Positions 13,495 to 26,957 of a stretch of DNA of 36,110 nt are shown one piece after another. The position numbers were made by a program, and so were the translations under genes. The notes beneath the pieces are model-generated. The model saw nothing but the letters and a program-made list of their open reading frames with translations, ran no database searches and was not told the origin of the DNA. Origin of the DNA: a virus; the IMG/VR virus record IMGVR_UViG_3300042346_000588, positions 1 through 36,110 of that record; one strand, written 5' to 3'. Positions within the stretch are counted from its first letter, which is position 1. Each line of letters starts with the position of its first letter.

Positions 13495-15495
13495 TTAGCT
13501 GTTCGCCTGGGCGATTAGATTCCCCACAATCGCTGTCGTGGCGCAGTTTTGGAGGCGTTCTATTGGCAAGGCGTCTGTCTTGGCCTTGATCGCGGCGACA
13601 TCCGAATTCGCTGGCGCTGTGTAGGAGCTGGCGGCCATGCGGCTGCTCACGGAGGCGTCCACTCGTGCCAGTTCAACGGCCAGCTCGGTGCGTGTGGCTG
13701 CGGCGATGCTTGCGGCACTCGGCACTGATGGCGAATTCGTGAGGGTGTCCACGGTCCCGCCGGTGATTTGCTTGCTGGCGGTGCCCCAAACGGCGCTGGC
13801 GTTGGCGGCTGCTGTCGGAACGGCGTCAAGTTTCCCGCCGGCGCGTTCGATGTCGGTTCGGATGGCTGCGACAAGGGCGACTTCCGAGAGGTTCGTGTTG
13901 CCGATCGCTCCCACGATCGCGTTGAGGACTGCTTGGCCGTCGCCTTCGTTGAGGAGACTGCCTTCGACTGCCGTTGCGATTTGCGCGGTGGTCGGCGCTG
14001 CGGTGTAGGCGCTGCTCGCGAGGCGGCTTGAAACGGTTGCGTCGAGCTTCGTTGAGTTCGCGTCGATCTCTTGCCTGATCTCTACGGCTGTCGGGCCGCT
14101 TGAGGTTGTGAGCGTGCGGCTGTTGTATGCCCACACATCCGAGGCGCTGATGCCTGCGCCTGCTGTGAGCGTGCGTGATGCGTGGCCCCACACGGCTTCT
14201 GGCGTGAGGACTGCTGTGCCTGTGGTCGCATCGACTGGCACGCCCAGCGCGACCGACCCTGCGGCTGGGACTGCACATGTGCCGGTAAGGTTACCTCCTC
14301 CGTAAGCGATACCGCTGCGGACGTTGGCGGCGATGGGGTTTCCGAATGAGCCGTTGTCTGCGCCATACATGGTGAAATACGAGTCGGTTGTGCCTGCGAG
14401 GGCAAAGCGTGTCTGGCCGAGAGTCGGGGCTGTGCCGAGACGCCACTTGGTTCCACTGACGGCTTTCCACCCCCCCCAGTGGTCGAGGAAGTCGCCACTC
14501 AAGCGGACATCGGCTCCGGTGTTCGTGGCCGAGACGGCGTTTGAGAAGGCCGATGCGGTAAATGTGCTTTGCGTAACGATGACCGTTCCGGTCGAAGCGT
14601 TGTTAAGTGCGAAGGCGCTGCCCGCGCTGCCGCCTGTGAAGGTGCAGCTTGCACTGACATTGACCGTGCCGGTTGAGGCGTTGTTGAAGCCGTAGACCGC
14701 GCTGCCGCTGCCGCCTGTGAAGGTGCAGCTTGCACTGACATTGACCGTGCCGGTTGAGGCGTTGTTGAAGGCGCTGCCGCTGCCGCCTGTGAAGGTGCAG
14801 CTTGCACTGACATTGACCGTGCCGGTTGAGGCGTTGTTGAAGGCGCTGGCGCCGTTGCCTGTGAATGTGCAGCTTGAACTCACATTGACCGTGCCGGTCG
14901 AGCCGTTGTTTACGGCATGTGCGCTGGAGTTGGTGCCACCCGTGAAAGCGGAATTGGCCAGCGTGCAGGTCGAGGTGCCATTGTAGTTGCACCCATGCGC
15001 TGCTGCCGCCGATCCTCCTACGACGCGCAAGCCGTCCAGAGTAAGTGCGGTTGCACCTGTCACCGAGAGGCAGGCGGTCGTGCCTGCGCGGAGGTCCGTG
15101 GTGATGGCGAAGGGCGAGGATATGGCAAACGATCCGCCTCCGCCAGTAGCTCCTGCTGGCGTGTTGGCGGCAGTGGTGATCGTGGCGAGAGCGCGGGCAT
15201 TGCCGGTGCCGGTGCCGACACCGGTGGCGAGGAATATCGTGCCTGCGGTGTTAGAGGCTGCGCCGATGCCGGTCCATGAGGTCGTGCCGACGAACAGGAC
15301 TTCATACCATTGACCGGAGACGAACGATCCGGCGTTGACGGTGGGGTTGTTGGCTCCGCCGATCAGGATGTCTTGGTTGATCGTGACATTGAATCCATTG
15401 GCGTAAACGGTGTCGCCGTCCGTTGGAACCACACCGCCGTTCCATGTTCCGGTGGCGGACCAGTTGCCGTTTGCTACTGCGCGTCTTGTAGCCAT
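13495..15495 (-). CDS. Tail fibre / adhesin with tandem beta repeats (666 aa)
   Basis: A probable receptor-binding structure. Residues 1-60 (GNWSATGTWNGG, PTDGDTVYANGFNVTI) look like a G8-type beta domain. Residues about 195-300 consist of consecutive repeats built on ASTGTVNVSASCTFTGG, expected to form a beta-helix; the repeats are almost identical at DNA level. The C-terminal part (ASDVWAYNSRTLT, TAVEIRQEID, SKLDATVSSRLA) is Ala-rich and helical, a pattern common in phage tail proteins. It is the last structural gene before lysis. Its composition is extremely rich in Ala, Thr, Gly and Ser. Confidence 0.75.
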   Translation of the reverse strand: MATRRAVANGNWSATGTWNGGVVPTDGDTVYANGFNVTINQDILIGGANNPTVNAGSFVSGQWYEVLFVGTTSWTGIGAASNTAGTIFLATGVGTGTGNARALATITTAANTPAGATGGGGSFAISSPFAITTDLRAGTTACLSVTGATALTLDGLRVVGGSAAAAHGCNYNGTSTCTLANSAFTGGTNSSAHAVNNGSTGTVNVSSSCTFTGNGASAFNNASTGTVNVSASCTFTGGSGSAFNNASTGTVNVSASCTFTGGSGSAVYGFNNASTGTVNVSASCTFTGGSAGSAFALNNASTGTVIVTQSTFTASAFSNAVSATNTGADVRLSGDFLDHWGGWKAVSGTKWRLGTAPTLGQTRFALAGTTDSYFTMYGADNGSFGNPIAANVRSGIAYGGGNLTGTCAVPAAGSVALGVPVDATTGTAVLTPEAVWGHASRTLTAGAGISASDVWAYNSRTLTTSSGPTAVEIRQEIDANSTKLDATVSSRLASSAYTAAPTTAQIATAVEGSLLNEGDGQAVLNAIVGAIGNTNLSEVALVAAIRTDIERAGGKLDAVPTAAANASAVWGTASKQITGGTVDTLTNSPSVPSAASIAAATRTELAVELARVDASVSSRMAASSYTAPANSDVAAIKAKTDALPIERLQNCATTAIVGNLIAQANS
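14630..14850. repeat. Tandem near-identical ~60-bp repeats within fibre gene
   Basis: Three copies of a 60-bp unit begin at 14630, 14711 and 14783 (plus-strand start CCGCCTGTGAAGGTGCAG); two more diverged copies flank them (to about 14905 and 14570). Spacers differ by 9-12 bases, always keeping the frame. The high identity allows copy-number change by recombination. Confidence 0.85.
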
Positions 15496-21060: not shown

Positions 21061-24000
21061 TTAAGCGAGTGCGCGCTGCGGCAGCTTGGGTTCGATTTTT
21101 TCGACGGCGGTTTTGATTGACTCCACGAAGCCTTTGATCGTTTCGAGGATGCCGCTCGTTCCGCTCTTGGCGGAGATGTCGAGTTCGATGCCTTCCTTTA
21201 GCGACTGGCGGATGGCGGCGATGGAGGTGTCGGCGTTGAGGTTTAGGGTCAGGTCGGTGCCGATTGCGGCGATGGCAGCCTGTGCGGCGGTCGTGTCGGC
21301 GGATGTTGGAAGGGTGATCTCCTGACCAATACTTGCAATGGATTGCTCTGCCGAAGTGGTGTCGGCGTTAATTGTGGCCGTCTGAGCGCTGCCAAGGGTG
21401 GCGACTTGAGACTGTGCCTCTGCGCTGTCTGCGCTGATGGTGGCAGTCTGCGAGGCTCCGAGGCTGGCGACTTGCGTCTGTGCCTCGGTCGTATCGGCAT
21501 TGATAGATACTGTCTGAGCATTTCCAAGGCTGGCAACCTGTGTTCCTGCGGCAGCGGTATCGGCAGAGAGTGTAAATGTCTGGGGTCCGCCGAGGCTGGC
21601 CACTTGCGTCTGAGCATCAGTCGTGTCGGCGGAGAGTGTGAATGTCTGGGGGCCGCCGAGGCCGGCCACCTGAGACTGTGCGCTGGTCGTGTCGGCGGAG
21701 AGGGTCACTGTCTGCGGGTTGGCGAGAGAGGCGACATCCGTTTGCGCGGTGGAGGTGTCGGCGTTGACGCCAAGCTCTACGGGCGTGGCGAAGGCGCTGT
21801 TGACGGTGCTGTAGACATCGTTGGCCGCTTGCGAGCCGCTCATGCTCAGCGTGATCGGGTTTGAAAAGTTCGCTTCAGCCGCGCTGCGCACGTCTTGGAT
21901 GGTGCGGTCGCCGTCGAGGTTCAGCGGTATAGGCCCGGCAAAGTTGCTCTCTGCCGAAGTGCGCACGGCGGCAATGCTCTGGTCGCCTGTGAGGTTGAGG
22001 GAGAGCGGGGTTGCGAAGGTGGTGTTCGCGGAGTCGTAGAGGCTCGTGATCGAGGCCATTGCGGCTGTCGAGTCCACATTGGCAGTGACACTTACGCTCT
22101 TGCCGTTTTTCTCCATGAGCGTGTCGAGCACGTTGTTCAACAGGCTCACGTCCTCGAGGCCAAAGGATTCGGCAGCGATTTTAGCCGTCTTTGTGTCTGG
22201 CACCCCATTGATCTGGTTGCTCAGTTCAGTGAGGTTCTCGAATCCGTATTTTTCAAGAATGAGCTTTGTTTGTGTCGTGCCGCCAAAGCGCTGAAGGTTT
22301 CCAAGCGCCGTATCGAGGTCTTCCTCGCCTGTGATCTCCATCGCTGCTGTGACCGATTTTTGATTTGGGATTCCGTTGATTTTATTTGAAAGCTCTTCAA
22401 GCGAAGAGACCCCCGTGGCGTCAAACGCGGCCGTGACATTTTTACTCTCGCACGCATCGAGCACGTTGCGGGCGTCTACCAGGTTGTCCGTGCCGGTTAC
22501 CTCGAGCGAGACAGCGATGGTCTTCTCGTTCGGAGTGGCGTCGAGACTGGCGAGAAGATCCCTCCAAGGTTTGTCGCTCACGGTCGTGGTGACAGAGATA
22601 TTCACCACCTTGCCAGCAATGCCATCGGCTGCGGCCTTGGCATTCAGCATTGCTTGCGCGAATGCCTTGGCTTCTGGCTCTCCCATGCCGGCGTCGATGG
22701 CTTTTTTGAGTTCGGCGTTGAATTCCTTCTGGCTTTCCAGCGATGCCGCAAGCTCGGTGTTCCCGCTGGCTTTGGCTTGATTGATTTGAAGATCAAAGTC
22801 CAGTCCTGCTTGGAGAAACTCTTTGCGGGCGGATTCTTTTGCGTTGATCTCGTCTTGCTTGGTGGCGATTTGGGCGGCTTTCTCTGCGTGCTTTCCGTAG
22901 GTGTCTTCTATGGTCTTCGCAAACTGTTTTTGGATGTCCAGCTGTTCATTGATGCCGCCAAGAGACTGCTTTTGCTCATCCGTTTTACCCACGAGCGATT
23001 CGCCCAGCGTGAGGTTGCTGGTAAGGAGTTCTTTGTTGCCTGTGACTTCATCGTTGATGCCTCCCCAGGCGGAAGCCACGGAATCCAACTGCGGGACGAA
23101 ATCAGAGTTGAGAGAAAAAGATGACGCAATGCTTTCCCCGGTGGCGCTGGCTTGCGTGCCGAGTGCGCCGACTTTGCCGGTGGCGGCATCGGAGGCTGTG
23201 CCTACTTCACCGATTTTGCCTGAGGCATCTCCTGCGGCATCTCCTGCGTTGGCGATGCCTTGGGCTGCGGAGTCTTGGCTTTCACGCAAATCCTTGCCAC
23301 GGCCAACAAGGGTTTCCATGACATATCCAAACGGCGTAAATTTAGTAAACGCATCGGCCATCATTTGGTTAAAGCCGTCAAGTGATGTTGTGACTCCGCG
23401 ATACGCCGTGCCAAGGATGCCTGTGTCGTTTGCTGCCTTGGTATTGGCCGCCCCAAGATCGCCAATCATGGCGATAGCCCCACGCGTTGCGTCTGTGAGG
23501 TCTGTCAGAATTGGAGTCAGGTATTGCCCAACGCGCTCACCTAAGCCTGCGGCATCTACTTTTCCCATGCTATCGCCCAAGTCATCCACCGCCGGAATAA
23601 CTTCGCTCAGCACGCCTGCCGCAAACGCGGCCATCTTCCCTTTCACAGCGTCAATGGTCTCGCCTGCTGCGTCAAAGGTAGCTGCGTTCTCATCCATGAC
23701 CTGTTCCATGGAACCGACTTTCTCCCTGGCATCGTCAAGCGCAGGGGAGAAATCATTGAGGAGCGGCAGGAGCTTGCCGCCGAGCTTGTCGCCAAAGACA
23801 TCCGAGGAAGCTGCAGCGCGCTGCGTGGGGTCATCGATTGCCGCGATCTTATCGGCGAAAATCTGCATCTGCTCGGTGGGAGTCTTGCCCTGAAGCTCGG
23901 CAAGCGAAATGCCGAGACGGTTCATGGTGGCCACCTGCTTGTCGCCGCCGTTCGTCGCATCCTGCATGAAGTTTTGCAGTTTATTTATGGCGGTGCCGAC

Positions 24001-24525
24001 CGTCTCAGCACCGAGGCCGGAATTTTTGAATGCTGTTTCAAGGACCAGCAACTTGCCGGCCGATTCTCCTGTGCGTGCGCTGAGTTCGCTCAGGCGTCCG
24101 CCAAGATCAAGCGCATCGCCAAATCCCTGAACCACGGACTGCGCGGCGGTAAATGCCAGGTCAACGGCTTTGTTGAATCCGGCGGCGGCGATGTTGCCGA
24201 GGGAGACTGCCCCGGCAATTTTATTGAAAGACGTATCGAAGAAACCACCCATGCCGGTTGTCTTCTCGCCGACATCCTGCAAATCACGGGTAAGTCGCTC
24301 GATTTTGGGTGATGCGTCGGCAGCTTCACCACCCATGGCTTTGAGCTTCTGCTCGAGACCTTCCACCTGCCCGATGCGCCTCATAGTCTTTTCCAACTCG
24401 CCCATGGAAAGGTCGCCGCTCTTGACCTTGGCTTCCATGTTGGAAAGTTCGGCCTGCACCGTCTTAAGCGTGGCTTCCAGTCCGGCGTCGGATGCGCCGA
24501 TTTTTACTTCGAGGGTGTCGCTCAT
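21061..24525 (-). CDS. Tail tape measure protein (1154 aa)
   Basis: The longest gene, placed after the G/GT chaperones as in lambda-like phages. The N-terminus SDTLEVKIGASDAGLEATLK and heptad-rich segments are typical; an internal hydrophobic stretch (GAVSLGNIAAAGFNKAVDLA) fits the membrane-active part. The C-terminal third holds nine consecutive 22-residue repeats (SADTTxAQTQVASLGxPQT). The start at 24525 is set by the ATGA overlap with the upstream gene; the frame stays open to 24891 only as an out-of-frame reading of that gene. By the usual 0.15 nm per residue the tail would be about 170 nm long. Confidence 0.92.
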   Translation of the reverse strand: MSDTLEVKIGASDAGLEATLKTVQAELSNMEAKVKSGDLSMGELEKTMRRIGQVEGLEQKLKAMGGEAADASPKIERLTRDLQDVGEKTTGMGGFFDTSFNKIAGAVSLGNIAAAGFNKAVDLAFTAAQSVVQGFGDALDLGGRLSELSARTGESAGKLLVLETAFKNSGLGAETVGTAINKLQNFMQDATNGGDKQVATMNRLGISLAELQGKTPTEQMQIFADKIAAIDDPTQRAAASSDVFGDKLGGKLLPLLNDFSPALDDAREKVGSMEQVMDENAATFDAAGETIDAVKGKMAAFAAGVLSEVIPAVDDLGDSMGKVDAAGLGERVGQYLTPILTDLTDATRGAIAMIGDLGAANTKAANDTGILGTAYRGVTTSLDGFNQMMADAFTKFTPFGYVMETLVGRGKDLRESQDSAAQGIANAGDAAGDASGKIGEVGTASDAATGKVGALGTQASATGESIASSFSLNSDFVPQLDSVASAWGGINDEVTGNKELLTSNLTLGESLVGKTDEQKQSLGGINEQLDIQKQFAKTIEDTYGKHAEKAAQIATKQDEINAKESARKEFLQAGLDFDLQINQAKASGNTELAASLESQKEFNAELKKAIDAGMGEPEAKAFAQAMLNAKAAADGIAGKVVNISVTTTVSDKPWRDLLASLDATPNEKTIAVSLEVTGTDNLVDARNVLDACESKNVTAAFDATGVSSLEELSNKINGIPNQKSVTAAMEITGEEDLDTALGNLQRFGGTTQTKLILEKYGFENLTELSNQINGVPDTKTAKIAAESFGLEDVSLLNNVLDTLMEKNGKSVSVTANVDSTAAMASITSLYDSANTTFATPLSLNLTGDQSIAAVRTSAESNFAGPIPLNLDGDRTIQDVRSAAEANFSNPITLSMSGSQAANDVYSTVNSAFATPVELGVNADTSTAQTDVASLANPQTVTLSADTTSAQSQVAGLGGPQTFTLSADTTDAQTQVASLGGPQTFTLSADTAAAGTQVASLGNAQTVSINADTTEAQTQVASLGASQTATISADSAEAQSQVATLGSAQTATINADTTSAEQSIASIGQEITLPTSADTTAAQAAIAAIGTDLTLNLNADTSIAAIRQSLKEGIELDISAKSGTSGILETIKGFVESIKTAVEKIEPKLPQRALA
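21190..21783. repeat. Nine 66-bp coding repeats in tape measure gene
   Basis: Nine in-frame 22-codon units, each with an ADT core (for example LSADTTDAQTQVASLG). The units differ at DNA level, so they are older than the fibre repeats. Three related 25-residue units (LNLTGDQSIAAVRTSAESNF type) lie just upstream in the protein. Confidence 0.85.
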
Positions 24526-25193
24526 TTGAGATTCAGGCCGGGGTATTTGGCGGCGATGGTGGAGATATTTTTGAAGACGCCGGCCTTCATGTTTTCGCGG
24601 AAAAACTTCTCGCGGCCGTTCATGGCCTTGCGGATCGCATCGAAGACGCTGGATGAGTAGGTGCGCGAGTTGCTGAGATTGATGGCAAAGTCGCTCCCGT
24701 TGCGTTCTTCCCGAGCCTGTGCGTTCTCTGGGTAGTCGCCGCCGCGCGTGGTTGCGGAAGCGACATAGCTGGGCACAGAAATGTCGAATCCAAGGCGCTC
24801 TGCAATCTGCTTCCAGCTTTTTTTGGAGAGTCCACGCGCTTCTTTGCGGCGTTTGATCGATGCAGAGATTTGAGACAATGCCGCTGCCCATACTCCATCC
24901 GGCAATCGCCAGCCTTTGGGTGTGGGTTTATTCCATCCAGAAGGTGCTGACCAATCGGCGGAGGCTTTGACCAGATACTTATTGGCACCAATAGTCCGCA
25001 CCGGCTTGCTGCGCACGTTTTTTTCGATGCTTTTGACCTGTGCGGCCGCCGTATTTTTTGATGCTGCTTCCAGAATCTTCTGCGTCTCGCTCTTGACGAC
25101 TTCCTCATATGTCACGCCAGCGGTGCGCGCGATCTCATCGAAGGCGCGCATAAGCCCGAGGTTGGCGACAGACATGGAAAGTGATCGGCTCAT
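24522..25193 (-). CDS. Tail-assembly region protein (223 aa)
   Basis: Helical N-terminal half (MRAFDEIARTAGVTYEEVVK), a central basic region with RRKEARGLSKKSWKQIAERL, and a C-terminal segment with RNGSDFAINLSNSRTYSS. Not recognised as a known tail family, though proteins of this size commonly lie between chaperones and tape measure. The start at 25193 overlaps the stop of the T frame (ATGA). Confidence 0.65.
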   Translation of the reverse strand: MSRSLSMSVANLGLMRAFDEIARTAGVTYEEVVKSETQKILEAASKNTAAAQVKSIEKNVRSKPVRTIGANKYLVKASADWSAPSGWNKPTPKGWRLPDGVWAAALSQISASIKRRKEARGLSKKSWKQIAERLGFDISVPSYVASATTRGGDYPENAQAREERNGSDFAINLSNSRTYSSSVFDAIRKAMNGREKFFRENMKAGVFKNISTIAAKYPGLNLK

Positions 25194-25411
25194 AGTTTGG
25201 CAAAGGCGGCTTCTATCTCAGTGATGGAGTCAAAAACGGCGGCGGTGTTGTTGCGCGTCCAGTATTTCTGCTGCCCGTGCGCCCAGCTGTCGGCGTGGAG
25301 TAGCTGGAGGCCGGCGGAAAAGGGAAGCTCCTCGAGGATTTCGCGGAAGCCCCAACCAGTAACTTTTGCGAGTCTGTAAACATACCCGGCGAGCCAGTTG
25401 GGGCCATTTAG
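25190..25411 (-). CDS. T-domain of tail assembly chaperone, made by -1 frameshift (73 codons)
   Basis: This frame (LNGPNWLAGYVYRLAK ... EIEAAFAKL) has no ATG, GTG or TTG near its beginning and continues the preceding gene through a -1 slip at GGGAAAC. The fusion product covers 25818-25190 with 209 residues (136 + 73), equivalent to gpGT of lambda. In that family gpG coats the tape measure and the T domain recruits tail tube subunits. Upstream of the slip site this frame runs inside the G gene and encodes an Arg/His-rich, noncoding-looking sequence, which supports frameshift rather than independent start. Confidence 0.85.
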   Translation of the reverse strand, partial: LNGPNWLAGYVYRLAKVTGWGFREILEELPFSAGLQLLHADSWAHGQQKYWTRNNTAAVFDSITEIEAAFAKL

Positions 25412-25818
25412 TTTCCCGACTCTGTGCCTTCGCTGTGGCTTGTCGCGGCCATGTAGAGGTTGAACGCCTGCTCCATGTCGGTGGCCATGGCGCGCACGGT
25501 GTGCTGGTCGGGAATGTTCTTCTCGATCCACACGTCCACGGCGTCGAGGAAGGCCGAGCGGTCATTCACCACGCCGCGAATCTTCGGGAATGGCTCCGAG
25601 TGAAGGAACATGAAAGCGGCGGCTTTCCAGATATTGTCTTTGTCGGGATCGAAGAATTTGTTGCGCTGCATCCATGAGATCGTGAGCGCGGTGATCGGTC
25701 GCAGGTCACGGCCTGCAACGTGCTTCGGCCCATCGGTGATGCCTTGGATGCGGAGGGCTTCATCGTCGGAGAGGAGGTCGGTGTTTTGGGTGTCTGTGTT
25801 TTGGTTTTTTTGTTTCAT
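25408..25818 (-). CDS. Tail assembly chaperone, G-like (136 aa)
   Basis: A soluble assembly factor for the tail, placed before the tape measure. Polar N-terminus (KQKNQNTDTQNTD), then a conserved-looking domain ALRIQGITDGPKHVAGRDLR with ALTISWMQRN and a C-terminal helical part (EQAFNLYMAATSHSEGT). It ends with SGN at the slippery sequence. Most ribosomes should stop here; a minor fraction should shift to make the GT fusion. The start overlaps the upstream stop (ATGA, 25815-25818). Confidence 0.82.
   Translation of the reverse strand: MKQKNQNTDTQNTDLLSDDEALRIQGITDGPKHVAGRDLRPITALTISWMQRNKFFDPDKDNIWKAAAFMFLHSEPFPKIRGVVNDRSAFLDAVDVWIEKNIPDQHTVRAMATDMEQAFNLYMAATSHSEGTESGN
25411..25417 (-). promoter_or_regulatory. 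Slippery heptamer GGGAAAC for programmed -1 frameshift
   Basis: On the coding strand the zero-frame codons are TCG GGA AAC TAA, so G GGA AAC is in exact X XXY YYZ phase and is followed at once by the stop. Slip by -1 gives GGG AAA CTA AAT and enters the T frame. The lambda G/T site is GGGAAAG. I see no strong downstream stem-loop. Confidence 0.85.
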
Positions 25819-26261: not shown

Positions 26262-26636
26262 TTAGGAGGTGGATAAGCTCAGCGCTTGATCATACTGCGT
26301 GGCCGCGATTTGGGTTTTTTGGAAATCGCTCGAGGTCGATGTTTTGGTGACCGAATCAACCAGGATCGTGCCTTCCAGCGGGGAGCCGACTGTATTAGCC
26401 AGGCTGCTCAAAATTCCGCCCACTTCCATGGTCGTGGTGCCGATTCCGCTGATCGAAATGCTGGCTTTTTTGTTGTAGCGGTGGGAGTAAACAAGCTCAC
26501 CGGACTCGTCAAAAACTTCGGCTTTGTCCGCGCTCACGTCGTAGGAGAGCGACTCGAGCAAAAAGCCCACGGCGGTTTCTTCTTCCAGTCCGAATGTGGG
26601 TGAGATTCCTGAGGCAGCGTAAAATTTTGCAGGCAT
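26262..26636 (-). CDS. Tail tube-like protein B (124 aa)
   Basis: A beta-sandwich-type protein with the same plan as its upstream neighbour: a start of PAKFYAASGI, then SGELVYSHRYNKKASISISG, GTTTMEVGGILSSLA, and a closing strand (GTILVDSVTKTSTSSDF). Shared features with protein A are a G-E followed by YNK, a central isG motif, and a VD-V-T/S-xS strand. It is one of two candidate tail tube subunits. A strong terminator follows, as expected for a highly expressed structural protein. Confidence 0.68.
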   Translation of the reverse strand: MPAKFYAASGISPTFGLEEETAVGFLLESLSYDVSADKAEVFDESGELVYSHRYNKKASISISGIGTTTMEVGGILSSLANTVGSPLEGTILVDSVTKTSTSSDFQKTQIAATQYDQALSLSTS

Positions 26637-26645
26637 AATATTCGA

Positions 26646-26957
26646 TTAGTCTTTGGTTGCGGTGATGGAGAATTCGGCGAACCCGTCGATGCTCTTGGAG
26701 GTGGATACCTGATCGACTGTGAAGCTGCCGCTCACGCCAGGCATGGTGGGAAGCGCGGCGCCCACGGTGAGGGTGGAAGGATCGCCGACGGCAGAAATTT
26801 GAACCTCTGTTTTAAATTTGTTGTAACCAACGGCGGCGACTTCGCCGTTTGCGCCTTGGAGTTCCTGCTTGGCGCTGGTCTGTGTTTCCGTCACCGAGGT
26901 GACGATGAACGATCCAGCGTTTCCGCCGGTGATTCCGAATGTATAGGATGCGGGCAT
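26646..26957 (-). CDS. Tail tube-like protein A (103 aa)
   Basis: Starts PASYTFGITGGNAGSFIVTS; contains KQELQGANGEVAAVGYNKFK and GSFTVDQVSTSKSIDGF. Its strand order matches that of protein B, so the two look like a tandem duplication of the tube subunit, or a tube plus a specialised terminal subunit. The ATG at 26957 lies 15 bases after TTTGACA (26973-26979), with no Shine-Dalgarno; longer readings would run into the tail terminator gene. Confidence 0.68.
   Translation of the reverse strand: MPASYTFGITGGNAGSFIVTSVTETQTSAKQELQGANGEVAAVGYNKFKTEVQISAVGDPSTLTVGAALPTMPGVSGSFTVDQVSTSKSIDGFAEFSITATKD

Follow-up and report, generated by a model that had tools for sequence, protein, structure and literature searches.

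The minus strand of the window, by which we mean the whole 36,110-nt stretch analysed here (IMG/VR virus record IMGVR_UViG_3300042346_000588, positions 1–36,110), very probably carries a G/GT-type tail assembly chaperone gene that is expressed through programmed −1 ribosomal frameshifting. Most ribosomes would stop at the TAA of the G-like gene and release a 136-aa G product. A minority would pause at a stem-loop about 5 nt past the slippery heptamer, with Gly-tRNA and Asn-tRNA on GGA AAC; both tRNAs would shift back onto GGG AAA, and reading would resume at CTA AAT GGC to yield a 209-aa GT protein. As in phage lambda, G would cover the tape measure protein, while the T portion present in the scarce GT copies would bring in subunits of the tail tube. 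In E. coli, heptamers of the GGGAAAC and XXXAAAC type slip with low efficiency (PMC4066793). This agrees with the low proportion of GT required in lambda (gpG:gpGT of 30:1; PMC5009743), and the efficiency here would probably be a few per cent. The prevailing view places slippage after the second zero-frame codon has been decoded (PMC4066793), so the main junction peptide would be ESGN-LNGPNW. The original prediction had named SGK-LNGPNW; because AAC would be read in frame 0 ahead of the slip, SGN-LNGPNW is mainly to be expected, and the SGK form would arise only if the slip preceded AAC decoding.

Layout and conservation of the G/T junction

The 3′ end of G reads TCG GGA AAC TAA, with the stop codon at 25408–25410 on the minus strand (Table 1). 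These coordinates bear out the proposal that GGGAAAC stands in exact slippery phase directly before the stop, and the TGA closing T agrees with the proposed −1 frame of 73 open codons, which together with the 136 residues of G gives the fusion of 209 aa. This TGA overlaps the ATG of the following 223-aa gene in a shared ATGA. An alignment of 39 members reveals a conserved core in G, which is predicted to be largely helical, with block mean pLDDT values of 84–96 over residues 41–120; the structure model of T is of low confidence. A second in-phase heptamer, A_AAA_AAC, occurs at G codons 3–5 (25804–25810, minus strand) and also in loci L002–L006, probably owing to a Lys/Asn-rich start of the protein.

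Table 1 Features of the frameshift locus and adjoining tail genes in the window
Feature	Positions	Strand	Basis or remark
G-like gene, zero-frame product, putative tail assembly chaperone	25408–25818	−	136 codons; ORF and translation
Slippery heptamer G_GGA_AAC	25411–25417	−	X_XXY_YYZ phase; touches G stop TAA
Spacer UAAAU, 5 nt, containing the stop	25406–25410	−	Between heptamer and stem
Stimulatory stem, 5′ arm GGCCCCAACUGG	25394–25405	−	RNAalifold consensus; pair counts
Stimulatory stem, 3′ arm CUGGUUGGGGCU	25348–25359	−	RNAalifold consensus; pair counts; window fold
T region, −1 frame, 73 codons starting CTA	25190–25411	−	Ends with TGA at 25190–25192
223-aa gene between chaperone and tape measure	24522–25193	−	ORF
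Tape measure protein gene	21061–24525	−	Pfam PhageMin_Tail, E 3.6e-7; phrog_8462 tape measure, E 3e-11

Related loci were collected by scanning viral contigs with G and T, together with one scan of bacterial genomes. Removal of identical junctions left 94 complete distinct junctions, the window counted in; the junction and codon counts given for this set come from related sequences and do not represent independent events. In all 94, XXXAAAC is followed at once by a zero-frame stop, T sits at a constant −1 offset, and the heptamer keeps the X_XXY_YYZ phase that defines programmed −1 frameshift sites. The predicted architecture is therefore the same throughout, namely a short product and a frameshift-extended product from one start. 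Conservation of the heptamer and both frames among relatives, which had been suggested as a check, is thus found without exception, and the stop is conserved with them. The patterns used for the G scan lay inside G only, so that conservation of the heptamer is not a product of searching for slip sites, and retention of the arrangement in 94/94 distinct junctions is far beyond chance.

The first triplet of the heptamer varies as a unit (GGG, CCC or AAA), giving GGGAAAC in 72 junctions, CCCAAAC in 15 and AAAAAAC in 7; the following stop is TAA in 81, TAG in 10 and TGA in 3. Across the 94 junctions the length of T ranges from 73 to 83 codons. A G-profile search of 388 genomes from the phylum of the metagenome-assembled genome (MAG) carrying locus L160 recovered a more distant relative, L163, from another bacterial genome, in which GGGAAAG is followed by TAG and the same stem arms are present. 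With L163 added, the heptamer-adjacent stop is invariant in 95/95. Three loci (L007, L010 and L011) bear an extra in-phase GGGAAAT 12 nt upstream of GGGAAAC, where a slip would lead into the same −1 frame. The sole named bacterial record among the loci is a Verrucomicrobiaceae MAG, and the terminase of the window is nearest to Akkermansia phage Moulinsart (25% identity); together these make Verrucomicrobiota the likely host of the window phage.

Downstream stem-loop and adjacent stop codon

The junction was analysed further in 40 representatives, comprising 39 sequences mutually less than 90% identical plus the window. RNAalifold applied to representatives returned one helix, an 8-pair consensus whose 5′ arm lies a few nucleotides past the heptamer. 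Over the 12-pair stem, 92.9% of cells are paired, compared with 24–61% when the partner is slid by 1–3 columns. Both-sided changes occur at three stem pairs, and the covariation score exceeds that of all 500 shuffles, which is weak evidence alone, the sequences being related. A stronger test used synonymous shuffles that leave the amino acid sequence and codon usage of T unchanged: the local fold is more stable than the shuffle mean in all 40 representatives (mean z −2.4), and this excess is limited to the segment beginning right after the heptamer, appearing nowhere else nearby. Of the 94 junctions, 73 have a 5-nt spacer and the others one of 4–8 nt, placing the structure at about the 5–8 nt from the heptamer expected of a frameshift stimulator. 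The Pro codon within the stem is CCC in 90 junctions and CCT in 4, both of which can pair with G, whereas the other Pro codons of T in the representatives are CCA (22), CCG (18), CCT (11) and CCC (6). The RNA stem after the heptamer is therefore selected.

In the window itself, the hairpin (25405–25348) has a folding energy of −24.1 kcal/mol, with a z of −1.9 relative to dinucleotide shuffles. The original prediction had seen no strong downstream stem-loop, and on this point it is overturned; the stem is hard to spot by eye because of a 34-nt loop with a variable upper part. An Rfam search gave no meaningful match.

Codon choice at the junction is likewise constrained. The −1 frame Leu codon after AAA is CTA in 91 junctions and CTG in 3, the next base always completing a stop, whereas CTA makes up about 9% of Leu codons in the rest of T. 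The slip-site Asn codon is AAC in 94/94, compared with 66% AAC in the rest of G. A change of its C to T is silent in both frames when Leu is CTA or CTG, and it is never seen among the 94 junctions. Judged from these codon patterns, the stop after the heptamer seems to be selected, and it may contribute to slippage.

A variant of the frameshifting mechanism would assign the stop a leading part: a stop in the A site would chiefly drive the slip of Gly- and Asn-tRNAs in the E and P sites during slow termination, with help from the stem. The invariant adjacency, kept though T could use other Leu codons, and the preference for CTA favour this variant, as does the weakness of AAC for A-site slippage in E. 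coli (PMC4066793). However, a stem set off from the heptamer by mostly 5 nt agrees with classical P/A-site slippage, and a stop right after the slip also has the plain effect of fixing where G ends; we regard the variant as possible but doubtful. Equally tentative is the idea that the stop is an obligate part of the signal, with release factor competing with tRNA slippage at XXXAAAC-stop in this lineage, in which case the G:GT ratio would track host termination efficiency. A literature search on stop-adjacent slippage returned no direct precedent.

AAGG/AGGG words, rich in purines and located about 9 nt before the heptamer, resemble a Shine–Dalgarno stimulator, an optional component of −1 frameshift signals. 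Such a role is not supported here: pairing with the anti-Shine–Dalgarno sequence is weak, and synonymous shuffles pair at least as well. The words thus show no sign of being selected and can be put down to the Gly-rich stretch of protein encoded there.

Selection on the −1 frame and the origin of T

In all 40 representatives the −1 frame of T is open across 54 codons, with a median pN/pS of about 0.37, and in none is the zero frame open beyond the G stop; T evolves under purifying selection. On the upstream side of the slip, 39 of the 40 have a −1 frame that does not stay open for 54 codons, in accordance with the earlier impression that its pre-slip part is non-coding. The −1 frame is thus coding and selected downstream of the slip, not upstream.

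T might instead be an independent gene with its own start, for example through reinitiation past the G stop. An ATG does directly follow that stop in the window, yet it lies in frame 0 and not in the frame of T. T itself contains no ATG, GTG or TTG in the window, and the only start codon in the window's open −1 frame, a GTG 38 codons upstream, is not kept by relatives, which upholds the view that T has no start of its own. Across the 94 junctions, 71 have no ATG, GTG or TTG from the preceding −1 stop through T codon 20. Since most relatives offer no start for T, independent initiation is not a general explanation; it also faces the closed upstream frame and leaves the conserved heptamer and stem unexplained, and we consider it highly improbable.

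The direct adjacency of G and T in different frames, resembling the outcome of a 1-nt indel, could also suggest one gene broken by sequencing error, assembly error or pseudogenization. The relatives refute this, as the same layout recurs in 94 distinct junctions from many metagenomes and one MAG, with three stop types, a T under purifying selection and a conserved G, leaving such a break next to no credence. Slippage of RNA polymerase on a homopolymer, suggested by AAAAAAC in a minority of relatives, can practically be dismissed, because GGGAAAC and CCCAAAC contain runs of at most 3, too short for transcriptional slippage, and the stem would likewise go unexplained. Ribosomal frameshifting at the heptamer is the best account of the junction, and the comparative evidence for it, drawn from sequence alignments, is unusually complete.

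Tail module and comparison with known systems

Within the tail module the chaperone locus precedes the tape measure gene, with one gene between them, and the tape measure ATG at 24525 overlaps the stop of that 223-aa gene. The lambda-like order of tube, chaperone and tape measure assigned by the original prediction therefore stands in part: the chaperone does precede the tape measure, but the 223-aa gene intervenes and no homology match identifies a tube gene. Neither G nor T has a convincing match in Pfam or PHROGs. Against annotated phages, tblastn gave no match for T and only a chance match for G (26% coverage, E 0.7). Fold searches with the G model against the PDB (Foldseek, VIA-align) and BFVD yielded nothing significant, the best BFVD row being an uncharacterised Caudovirales protein at E 0.012. 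A literature search on chaperones of Verrucomicrobiota phages produced no direct precedent. A G/GT-type tail chaperone is nevertheless by far the likeliest identity, on the basis of the place before the tape measure and the G/GT architecture, not of homology. The proposal of a frameshifted chaperone of this type is sustained accordingly, through comparative evidence for the frameshift and through position and architecture for the identity.

Lambda gpG/gpGT (PMC5009743) resembles the present case in having a G-like gene before the tape measure, a −1 slip near its end and a T domain without its own start. Its heptamer, GGGAAAG, is found in the distant relative L163, whereas the AAAC ending occurs in 94/94 junctions here. 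Unlike lambda, the present locus has a zero-frame stop directly after the heptamer, a strong downstream stem-loop and an extra gene before the tape measure, with no detectable homology to a named family. A closer parallel is gp18/gp19 of Burkholderia phage KL1 (PMC3483164, JF939047), in which GGGAAAC directly precedes the gp18 stop (TGA), a downstream stem-loop is predicted and a gene lies between the chaperone pair and the tape measure. KL1 is a prediction for a single phage; its gp19, at 264 aa, has a longer T part than here, and KL1 was not returned by tblastn with G or T. Several other phages also carry a gene between the chaperone pair and the tape measure (PMC3483164). The g-t frameshifts of haloarchaeal siphoviruses HCTV-1/2/5 (PMC5009743) differ in having archaeal hosts. 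The −1 frameshifts of bacterial IS elements (PMC4066793) share the heptamer, short spacer and stem-loop, but their genes encode transposases. As stop-adjacent GGGAAAC was already predicted in KL1, the present case is ordinary in kind. It adds to the G/GT chaperones a protein family that neither Pfam nor PHROGs contains, carried by phages that likely infect Verrucomicrobiota, and it provides a deep natural alignment in which selection is visible separately on heptamer, stop and stem. It is also well suited to asking whether −1 slippage on XXXAAAC, a heptamer that is weak in E. coli, gains from an adjacent stop.

Several further features were observed in the window and its relatives. Two adjacent genes upstream of the chaperone (26262–26636 and 26646–26957, minus strand) are paralogues with 28% identity (E 1e-7); a family match was found for neither, and they are perhaps tandem tail tube or tube-like proteins. 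In L004, L006, L007, L010 and L011 the gene after T begins with MAK-KFEN and not with MSRSLSMSV or a near form, and judging by these sequences the gene content between the chaperone and the tape measure gene seems to vary. Several copies of a repeat about 20 aa long (SADTT-AQ-QVASLG--QT) occur in the C-terminal region of the tape measure protein (about 21250–21700, minus strand). Near-identical repeats, NNASTGTVNVSASCTFTGGSGSAF, are present in a 666-aa protein encoded at 13495–15495 (minus strand), which probably forms a tail fibre or serves another structural role.
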